The notes under the pieces were generated by a model. The model did not search any database. It was not told the origin of the DNA and saw only the letters and a program-made list of their open reading frames with translations. Below are positions 46,763 to 63,999 of a stretch of 64,000 nt of DNA, piece after piece. The stretch covers positions 62,001 to 126,000 of the forward strand of contig WQVD01000001.1 in assembly GCA_009781755.1 (NCBI GenBank), given 5' to 3'. The position numbers and the translations under genes were made by a program. This DNA is from Defluviitaleaceae bacterium. Lineage in GTDB: Bacteria; Bacillota; Clostridia; Lachnospirales; WQUN01. How positions within the stretch are numbered: the stretch's first letter is position 1; the number at the start of each line of letters is the position of its first letter.

Positions 46763-46941
46763 TAAAAAACCCGGAATACCGATCCTATATTTTGACACCT
46801 AGCCATAGGCTAGGTGGGTGTCCGCAGTGCAACTTCCGCCTTCCGTTCAAGACGGCTCGACGTGGCCTGCACAATAAATAAGACTCCCGTTTAAGGTCTG
46901 TAGGTTCAAAATAATAGGTTGTCGAGCATTCCAGGCTCGTG
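46763..46941 (-). ncRNA. ssrS: 6S RNA (regulator of RNA polymerase)
   Basis: On the minus strand a promoter (TTGCGT at 46971-46976, 18-base spacer, TATAAT at 46947-46952) drives an RNA of about 180 nt. The 5' stretch CCTGGAAT pairs with ATTCCGGG just before a T6 run, forming the closing stem that doubles as terminator. Landmarks typical of clostridial 6S are TTTTGAACCTACAGACC, AACGGGAG, CAGGCC, TTGAACGGAAGGC and CCCACCTA. 6S RNA mimics an open promoter and sequesters sigma-A holoenzyme. I recognise it from sequence landmarks and pairing. Confidence 0.85.
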
Positions 46942-47098: not shown

Positions 47099-47172
<74 letters not shown>

Positions 47173-48832: not shown

Positions 48833-49627
48833 ATGGACACAACGCATATCAACAAGGCCAAGGTTTTCATCCAAGATCATATAAAGACAGCATTTACGCT
48901 CAATGAGCTCGCCGACAGCATCGGTTATTCGGCATTCCATTTGGCCAGAGAGTTTAAAGCCGTTACCCGATTGTCGATTATGGAGTACACACGCAACGAG
49001 CGTATTTTGGCCGCGGCAAAGGGATTGGGCGATGGTATGAATATCTGCCACGTTGCGATGGATTACTGCTTTGACACGCACGCCGGGTTTACCAAGGCGT
49101 TCACCGCTATATATGGCTGCACACCCAAAGAGTACCAAGCACATGCCCGCAAAATAAAAACTTCCGAAAGGGGAATTACTTTCATGGAAAATTCAAAAAT
49201 CATCATCCGCCACATTTGTAAAGATGACGTGCAAGACCTGTGGGAGAACGTCTACAGCGCAATGACTCCAAAACAAATTGCAGAAGATAAAATCCAATAC
49301 CACCTGGATTTATACAATAGAAAGGAAGGCCTGGAACTGGTGGCAGAAGTGGACGGCAAGGTCGTCATGTCCTTGCCACTGTCCAAGCCGATGTGGATTC
49401 CGTTGGGTTTTGTATGGGACAATAACTTCACCGCCACCGAAGGCGACGCCCACATTCTTATGCAAAAACTCATGGACGAAATGAAGCGGCAAGCGAAAAT
49501 GATTGGCATTTCTACCTTGGTATCTGCTCAAGCACAAAATAGTGACGCATCAAAAGCCATGCAGTCGTTGGGGTTTAATAAAACAAGTGAATCGGATGGT
49601 TGGGAGTATTTGATGATGGCGATATAA
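48833..49627 (+). CDS. AraC-type regulator fused to GNAT acetyltransferase
   Basis: This 264-residue protein has an N-terminal AraC HTH (about 5-105: FTLNELADSIGYSAFHLAREF and FTKAFTAIYGCTPKEYQ) and a C-terminal GNAT-like domain (about 120-264) with KLMDEMKRQAKMIGIS and NSDASKAMQSLGF. The first half binds DNA; the second likely acetylates a small molecule or toxin. CGGAGGGAGG lies upstream. This fusion is uncommon. The 3' end is followed by structured repeats at 49642-49838. Confidence 0.83.
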   Translation: MDTTHINKAKVFIQDHIKTAFTLNELADSIGYSAFHLAREFKAVTRLSIMEYTRNERILAAAKGLGDGMNICHVAMDYCFDTHAGFTKAFTAIYGCTPKEYQAHARKIKTSERGITFMENSKIIIRHICKDDVQDLWENVYSAMTPKQIAEDKIQYHLDLYNRKEGLELVAEVDGKVVMSLPLSKPMWIPLGFVWDNNFTATEGDAHILMQKLMDEMKRQAKMIGISTLVSAQAQNSDASKAMQSLGFNKTSESDGWEYLMMAI

Positions 49628-49641
49628 TCAAATCCAATAAA

Positions 49642-49727
49642 GCGGGCAAACCACAATGCACGGTAGCAAATCCAAGACGTCAACCTTTGAAGGATAAGAC
49701 ACGCAATATCTCATGAGGCGAAACATA
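49642..49727 (+). repeat. Putative structured-RNA module, copy A
   Basis: It begins GCGGGCAAACCACAATGCA and ends CTCATGAGGCGA (49710-49721). A diverged copy lies at 63365-63471 with the same ends, ACGTC and CCTTT core and order. It sits in the 3' region of the AraC-GNAT gene and is followed by a Y-shaped hairpin with T-rich tail. Class is unknown. Confidence 0.5.
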
Positions 49728-49750
49728 ATTTATGAATCGGGCAAATTAAA

Positions 49751-49838
49751 CAACCCGCAATGCAACAAATCGGTGATATATGGGGAAGCATAGGCTTTTC
49801 CATATTCGCCGTGTTTGTTGTGTTGCGGGTTGTTCTTT
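49751..49838 (+). repeat. 82-nt structured repeat, copy 1 (Y-shaped hairpin, terminator-like)
   Basis: CAACCCGCAA pairs with TTGCGGGTTG, extended by AACAAA/TTTGTT; the interior forms ATATGGGGAA/TTTTCCATAT. TTCTTTTG follows. The Xre regulator lies between this and copy 2 at 50873-50954, which keeps the same fold with changed bases. Confidence 0.75.
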
Positions 49839-49914
49839 TGTATAGTTCAACATCAGGGGTTTTTATTTTTATGTTATAATAATCCATATTGTTTTAGATC
49901 ACGGAGGAAACAAT

Positions 49915-63071: not shown

Positions 63072-63364
63072 TCTATATGATGCCGACGGTGATGTTGTTG
63101 GTGAATGGTACCCAACGAAATTATTTGAAGTGACAAAGCCGCGGATGATAACACATATGCTAATTCATTGCAACTTAAAAATGTCCGTTCATACACGTTA
63201 AAATGCCCGCACAACCGTTGAAAGGCGCTTCGCGTCGAATGGGTCAGCCTGAATAATGGATGCTTCGGCATTTGTTGGTTCCGCTGCGCCACTGCGCTCA
63301 TCAGCCCCCTGCGACCGTTGTACGCAACATTCGCAATACCGCAACATCGCCAAACCTGATTTAG

Positions 63365-63471
63365 GCGGGCAACCCACAGTGCAGACGACTGCTAGCGTCG
63401 TTTGCAAGCGGCGGAAAGCCCACGTCGACACCTTTCAACAGGGGAGGCATCAAGCCCTCATGAGGCAAGTC
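63365..63471 (+). repeat. Putative structured-RNA module, copy B
   Basis: It begins GCGGGCAACCCACAGTGCA and ends CTCATGAGGCAA, like copy A at 49642. It has about 20 extra bases in the middle. A GC-rich segment from 63202 may be part of the same RNA. Confidence 0.5.
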
Positions 63472-63494
63472 ATTTAACAAATCGAAACAATAAT

Positions 63495-63578
63495 AACCTG
63501 CATCACACAATGGATAGCATAACGGTTTACATTGACCGGAACTGCTTGTGCATTGCTGTGATGTGGGTTTTATTTTTT
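63495..63578 (+). terminator. Y-shaped hairpin with T-rich tail
   Basis: AACCTGCATCACA (63495-63507) pairs with TGTGATGTGGGTT (63557-63569) through two wobble pairs; an inner CGGTTTACATTGACCG hairpin sits on top. TTATTTTTT follows. It resembles the fold of copies at 49751 and 50873. Confidence 0.6.
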
Positions 63579-63999
63579 AAAACACCCGCCATATATTCAT
63601 CCCAAAGCCCACCAACCCGTCCCCGGCAATCAACCCGGGGGCGCGAACGGCCATTTTTTCTGCGCCGAAAATGCGCCGCACTACGATTGCCGCCATCAGC
63701 GCAATGCCGAATATTGGATTGTTGATGAGCAATCCCGTTGCCAGCATTAACCCCACACTTTTGTTACCGAATGCGGCTTGTAGTGCTGCGCCGGGTATCG
63801 CCCAAAGGGCCAGTTCACGCAATAGGGTAGGGTTGATGGCTTCTGCCACGGTGGTGGCGTAGAATAAACTCATGGGCGGCACAACGTCGTTGTTGAGCAA
63901 AACGATACCAAATATCAACGACACACCAATGCCTATAATTGCTCCCAAATATTTTATTAGCACTTGTTGCCGACGGCCGAACGATTCATGTGCGGGGTT
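63577..63999 (-). CDS. OPT family oligopeptide transporter, C-terminal part (gene continues past window)
   Basis: The minus-strand frame is open to the window edge, so the N-terminus lies beyond 64000. The visible 140 residues carry two to three membrane helices (GAIIGIGVSLIFGIVLL and others), GLMLATGLLINNPIFGIAL and RAPGLIAGDGLVGFG, which mark the end of OPT transporters. It would import oligopeptides or metal chelates. A duplicate scrap of its 3' end lies at 63006. Confidence 0.87.
   Translation of the reverse strand, partial: NPAHESFGRRQQVLIKYLGAIIGIGVSLIFGIVLLNNDVVPPMSLFYATTVAEAINPTLLRELALWAIPGAALQAAFGNKSVGLMLATGLLINNPIFGIALMAAIVVRRIFGAEKMAVRAPGLIAGDGLVGFGMNIWRVF

Follow-up and report, generated by a model that had tools for sequence, protein, structure and literature searches.

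A multicopy structured RNA family of Defluviitaleaceae with interchangeable palindromic words in two loops

The window, i.e., the whole 64-kb stretch of DNA analyzed here, contains a 6S RNA (46764–46940, minus strand) and a tRNA gene (47099–47172, plus strand), both ordinary Rfam matches, together with two related elements, copy A and copy B (Table 1). A 19-base motif, GCGGGCAANCCACANTGCA, marks the 5′ side of a short module in each. It occurs exactly twice in the window, at 49642 and 63365; with up to three mismatches it gives four matches against 0.56 expected, a number that none of 100 shuffles reached. Both modules terminate in CTCATGAGGC, at 49710 in copy A and 63457 in copy B. The common ends, in the same order, described in the original prediction are thus not due to chance. 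The ACGTC core also assigned to both copies is a coincidental overlap with two different palindromes, GACGTC in copy A and GTCGAC in copy B, which occupy the same structural site. Moreover, the two modules had been taken for the whole element, whereas each is only its 3′ third: a conserved 5′ domain of ~110 nt and a linker lie upstream in copy B and in the other full copies, placing most of the RNA upstream of the predicted boundaries.

Table 1. Features of copies A and B in the window.
Feature	Position	Strand	Description or basis
Copy B, whole	63204–63580	+	Full RNA gene of ~265 nt, then long terminator hairpin
Copy B promoter-like site, TTAAAA-18-TAAAAT	63175–63204	+	Weak match; promoter scan
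Copy B 5′ domain	63204–63330	+	Aligned with eight other full copies of the same genome
Copy B helix P1, closing the 5′ domain	about 63209–63220 with 63313–63321	+	Covariation
Copy B 3′ domain (long stem, apical loop, palindromic bulge, 3′ hairpin CCTCATGAGG)	63344–63468	+	R2 match and covariation
Copy B site 1 palindrome, GCTAGC	63391–63396	+	Apical loop of extra stem; sequence, site analysis
Copy B site 2 palindrome, GTCGAC	63424–63429	+	Bulge between two stems; sequence, site analysis
Copy B 3′ hairpin CTCATGAGGC, TCATGA loop	63457–63466	+	Kept in own genome and two sister species
Copy B terminator-like hairpin with T tail	63495–63579	+	Long, unbranched; fold −37.2 kcal/mol, z −7.3
Copy A, whole	49642–49840	+	Truncated, partly decayed copy
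Copy A 3′ domain, truncated, without 5′ domain	49642–49722	+	Covariance model match
Copy A hairpin with T-rich tail	49749–49845	+	Long, unbranched; fold −59.2 kcal/mol, z −12.0

The predicted stable hairpin with a T-rich tail does follow each copy, but its Y-shaped, branched form was rejected, as both fold into single long hairpins (z values in Table 1). The hairpin of copy B is not listed by a consensus terminator scan; it has bulges, which the scan does not allow. At the same copy, the promoter-like scan returned two sites, both strands counted, against 0.7 expected. The 3′ domain of copy B matches the covariance model R2 with 52.1 bits (E 7.6e-10). That of copy A, which directly follows a coding sequence ending at 49627, matches less well (E 0.011 with R2 and 9.0e-4 with R1), and its minimum free energy is no better than that of shuffles (z +1.6). 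Besides the 5′ domain, copy A has lost the palindrome of its site 1 loop, which reads AATGCACG, and keeps GACGTC at site 2 (49676–49681). Here, site 1 denotes the apical loop of the 3′ stem and site 2 the bulge just 5′ of the outer 3′ strand. R1 and R2 cover the 3′ domain only and were built from 20 and 36 sequences, respectively.

The full genome (2.64 Mb, 55 contigs) was searched with the copy B region. Instead of the two copies originally described, it holds about 16–19: R2 gives 15, to which copy A and three others are added; in these three, the 5′ domain is kept and the 3′ domain has diverged. Full copies share one layout. A promoter-like region comes first, and the 5′ domain (starting CACAAC...GAAAGGC) is joined by a linker to the 3′ domain, which ends in CTCATGAGG and is followed by a long, variable hairpin and its T tail. 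R1 detected the RNA in four of five genomes from the genus of the window and also in another genus, where G043 has at least 40 copies. With R2, it was found in nine of the 38 genomes of the family, belonging to five genera, with 15 copies in G000, 9 in G002, 5 in G004, 4 in G003, 16 in G042, 50 in G043, 2 in G050, 3 in G016, and 1 in G019. Under stricter filters, with which weak matches can be lost, the RNA turned up in the same nine genomes only among 392 sampled from the order, and in the genome of the window only among 391 from the class. A pattern scan of GTDB contigs likewise placed the element only in metagenome-assembled genomes of Defluviitaleaceae (bins Lab288P3bin217 and Lab288P1bin109). 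In our reading, the bin names, taken with a paper on 589 termite-gut genomes (PMC7024585), indicate that the hosts are termite-gut bacteria. In viral contigs, scans with three patterns and a protein search gave no hits.

Computation shows a 5′ domain that helix P1 closes and a 3′ domain whose long stem carries an apical loop and a bulge. For nine full copies of one genome, aligned independently with MAFFT, RNAalifold gave 57 pairs, 16 of which show compensatory change. For the 3′ domain (alignment A5, 36 sequences), 90.5% of the cells are paired and 20 of the 27 pairs show a double change, although these A5 values lean towards the model since the alignment was fitted to it. Double-change cells number 125, compared with 39.7 in shuffles (none of 500 as high) and 7–20 when the partners are slid; the covariation score is 0.368, against 0.173 for shuffled and 0.04–0.07 for slid structures. 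The compensation is visible by eye in the outer stem (GGAAGG/CCTTCC, GGTAGG/CCTACC, and GGGAGG/CCTCCC), and the closing pair of the 3′ hairpin CTCATGAGGC alternates between G-C and A-U. P1 covaries in the nine full copies of the own genome and, among 34 copies from several species, appears as GCAAC/GTTGC or GCAGC/GCTGT; within these 34 sequences of the 5′ domain, P1 and one hairpin alone are clear. Single full-length sequences fold with energies no better than those of shuffles (z −1.1 and −0.55), so the structure of full copies rests on covariation. In paired columns, G-U pairs outnumber A-C mismatches by 59 to 33, the pattern expected if the plus-strand RNA is the selected form.

Two kinds of insert were seen. 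In three own-genome copies (L002, L003, and the window at 63383–63412), the apical stem carries an extra stem-loop (GACGATTGCTAGCGTCG...) with GCTAGC in its loop. In many G043 copies (L110, L114, L124, L125, L130, and others), the 5′ domain has an insert of ~100 nt, itself resembling a long hairpin, between CATCAGGTAATAATCGCAG and GCGACTTATTACxCAGGAAGGGG.

Collectively, these data show a conserved, covarying, multicopy RNA family of ~240–290 nt plus a terminator hairpin. Further copies and conserved pairing with strong covariation were found, promoter-like sequences lie upstream of the 5′ domain and a terminator-like hairpin after the 3′ domain, and Rfam yields no match; the original suggestion of a structured RNA of unknown class, complete with terminator, is borne out. 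Indeed, Rfam 15 gave no match to the RNA at gathering thresholds for the window and 13 loci; at a permissive E of up to 10, the window copies and four other loci gave chance matches only. That the element is what remains of a known transposon end, or an Rfam RNA that escaped the search, is very improbable. Copy A, truncated and partly decayed, would suit that explanation, but the conserved, covarying copies in five genera do not.

The most distinctive feature of the family lies in its loops, and two copies alone could not have revealed it. A six-nucleotide palindrome occupies site 1 in 101 of 102 distinct copies, after hand correction of a misalignment, and takes eight forms: GAGCTC, GTGCAC, CGGCCG, GGTACC, GGATCC, GGGCCC, GCTAGC, and GTCGAC. 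The automatic alignment had misplaced this site in the own genome, where reading by hand gave seven GTGCAC and three GCTAGC. Site 2 holds a Watson–Crick palindrome in 100 of 102 distinct copies, with 11 words: GTGCAC, GCATGC, GCTAGC, GACGTC, TCGCGA, ACGCGT, GGATCC, GTCGAC, TGTACA, GGTACC, and TGCGCA. One of the two exceptions at site 2 is a wobble palindrome with G-U pairing; among the exceptions, L007 reads GCTGGC, which is self-complementary when G-U pairs are counted, and L111 reads GCTAAC, a broken palindrome. The scoring tolerated a shift of up to two bases in reading the word, with which about 5 in 64 random strings could be palindromic by chance. Among unique loop strings read by hand, 16 of 18 and 25 of 27 are palindromic at the two sites, compared with 2.0 and 2.2 after shuffling. 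A column scan without preselection found 81% palindromes (six words) in the apical-loop column and 79% (seven words, plus three in the next column) in the bulge column; no other place in the scan combines a high palindrome frequency with several words, and palindromes are absent from the median column. The 3′ hairpin has a conserved palindrome too, TCATGA, in a single form. A tree built without the palindrome columns requires no fewer than 21 changes at site 2 and 10 at site 1, nearly all of which replace a palindrome by a different one. Thus, the loops at sites 1 and 2 are under selection for self-complementarity.

Palindromic loops also occur in another hairpin, located between the 3′ domain and the downstream genes (CCCGGG, CACGTG, TCCGGA, GGGGCCCC, and others). 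These weigh less, since a hairpin with such a loop amounts to one long inverted repeat. The same word stands at both sites of one RNA in none of 51 copies, compared with 1.3 expected; this difference is not significant (P 0.23), and orthogonality of the two palindromes within one RNA was dropped as a candidate.

A palindrome made of adjacent bases is unable to pair inside its own molecule; its self-covariation hence argues for pairing between identical molecules. This reasoning has been applied to symmetric kissing loops in L9.3 of OLE and L21a of GOLLD, where it agrees with their cryo-EM structures (PMC12286853), and switching between different palindromes across homologues is what we observe here. 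Identical RNA molecules would bind through these loops by symmetric kissing contacts and form homodimers. With two or more contact sites per molecule, larger homo-oligomers are also probable, if less firmly indicated than dimers.

Palindromes could in principle serve a dimeric DNA-binding protein instead. The original prediction also raised the footprint of a small mobile element. Such a reading, a non-autonomous mobile repeat with palindromes and stems that work at the DNA level as binding sites for proteins, is unlikely in our view. High and variable copy numbers, up to 50 per genome, with many copies at contig ends and in either orientation to their neighbors, resemble the multicopy, inconsistently oriented motifs treated elsewhere as mobile-repeat candidates (PMC11109978); furthermore, the 5′ boundary in G042 is sharp, just upstream of the −35 box, and 3′ ends are clustered. 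Yet a single protein would favor a single site rather than 8–11 different palindromes, and the G-U pairs and the G-U palindrome point to RNA. Inspection by eye revealed neither terminal repeats nor target duplications, and three copies lie at matching places in two sister species (L071/L076, L077/L078, and L075/L079). In an empty-site comparison for L070, the upstream flank is syntenic in G004 and G001 and the downstream flank is not. No transposase or integrase was recognized by eye near the copies, except for resolvase-like ORFs after L074 and L072. The G002 contigs of L071, L077, and L079 break a few hundred bases upstream of the RNA copies, and identical upstream sequences in L071 and L079 reveal a longer repeat there.

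The neighboring genes bear on the origin of the RNA. In several genomes, a ribosome-binding site and two small genes come after the RNA; the own genome has such a unit on C24 (L191). The first gene, of about 67 amino acids, is weakly DUF1659-like (one of four queries, E 0.034, below the Pfam cut-off), and the second is DUF2922 (E 1e-8 to 1e-11, above the cut-off). An AlphaFold model of the DUF2922 protein from three sequences was too poor for a fold search (mean pLDDT 62.5), and a literature search on the function of DUF1659 and DUF2922 gave nothing useful. The pair lies downstream of a minority of copies only; elsewhere, neighbors are unrelated or convergent, diverse, and in either orientation, so the consistent location upstream of one gene family that marks a cis-regulatory leader is not seen.

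Even so, the structure might control termination or translation of the DUF1659–DUF2922 operon, with gene-less copies as decayed remnants, a possibility that deserves weight while falling short of an even chance. Full units with intact genes occur in several genomes (L191, L081, L084, L110, L111, L123, L210, and L215), a terminator-like hairpin stands between the RNA and the start codon in G016, and most G042 copies end in or just before the first gene. Remnants, however, would lose what most copies have retained: these copies, including the majority of the G043 ones read, are gene-less and still keep promoter, structure, and palindromes. A leader role alone also leaves the changing palindromes unexplained. 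The many gene-less copies with intact palindromes argue that the RNA is itself under selection or else spreads as a repeat.

Since the RNA often precedes the DUF1659-like and DUF2922 genes, an origin as a leader is likely. The RNA may have begun as the leader of this small two-gene operon and may then have spread as an independent RNA gene equipped with a promoter and a terminator, steps that we propose with less confidence than self-pairing. Copies in G042 and G016 and copy L069 have a TTGACA-17-TATTAT-like promoter at the position matching the promoter-like site of copy B. Taken as a whole, a new multicopy family of structured non-coding RNA, with replaceable palindromic loop words, predicted self-pairing, and descent from a leader, is in our judgment probable. 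More speculatively, the many paralogues of one genome, with different words at two or more sites per molecule, might each assemble mainly with their own kind, giving sequence-coded, self-recognizing RNA-only particles or networks, possibly together with the DUF proteins; we would sooner doubt than expect this extension.

Two other features were noted around these operons. Before other DUF1659-like/DUF2922 operons of G000, G002, and G004 (L190, L192, L193, L197, L199, and L207) lies a different leader-like sequence, which matches no Rfam family and also has changing palindromes (GACTGGCCAGTC, GATCGGCCGATC, and GGTTGGCCAACC; GGGGCCCC, GGGTACCC, and GGGATCCC). A dyad-like motif near the −35 region, like GACATTTTCTAAGAAAATGTC, or GTTCGGACATGTCAA...ATGCCCGAAC in other copies, is found upstream of many RNA copies and DUF1659–DUF2922 operons (e.g., L045, L221, L189, and L198), possibly reflecting a common regulator.

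To our knowledge, only a handful of families of natural RNA-only homo-oligomers have been described, with little known of what they do. In the present family, many paralogues differ naturally, and in a compensatory way, in the proposed contact at two sites. Its RNA, about half the length of ROOL, can easily be made in vitro, so that a link of palindromic loops to self-assembly is open to direct test. In addition, the family connects a high-copy RNA with DUF1659 and DUF2922, two kinds of protein whose function is unknown.

The dimerization initiation site (DIS) of HIV-1 has a nine-nucleotide loop composed of two unpaired bases, a six-nucleotide palindrome, and one purine. The loops described here, AA-GAGCTC-A and AY-GTGCAC-A, resemble this kissing loop in layout only, and no relation in sequence or function is claimed. 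Among bacterial structured RNAs, OLE (Ornate Large Extremophilic) dimerizes, and in its L9.3 loop one palindromic tetranucleotide replaces another, which is self-covariation of the kind seen here (PMC12286853). In contrast, our family uses hexanucleotide words at two or more sites, is shorter and multicopy, has other neighboring genes, and does not match OLE in Rfam. GOLLD and ROOL assemble into homo-oligomers of RNA alone, in which symmetric kissing loops provide part of the contacts (PMC12286853), whereas oligomers of the present RNA are predicted from its sequence. GOLLD and ROOL are also larger (about 660 nt for a ROOL example and >800 nt for many GOLLD RNAs) and are encoded by phages or prophages, often near tRNA islands; our RNA was not found in viral contigs by pattern scans and matched none of the Rfam 15 covariance models of OLE, GOLLD, and ROOL. 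The abiF RNA motif (RF03085) of Clostridioides difficile and others is likewise a structured RNA with a terminator before a gene (PMC12373285), but there is no RF03085 match here, and the gene pair recognized next to the RNA is DUF1659-like/DUF2922 rather than Abi_2. The open-access papers found contain no description of the RNA family. RNA self-association by symmetric kissing loops is known; as far as these tools show, the family itself, its hexanucleotide words at two sites, and its copy number are new.
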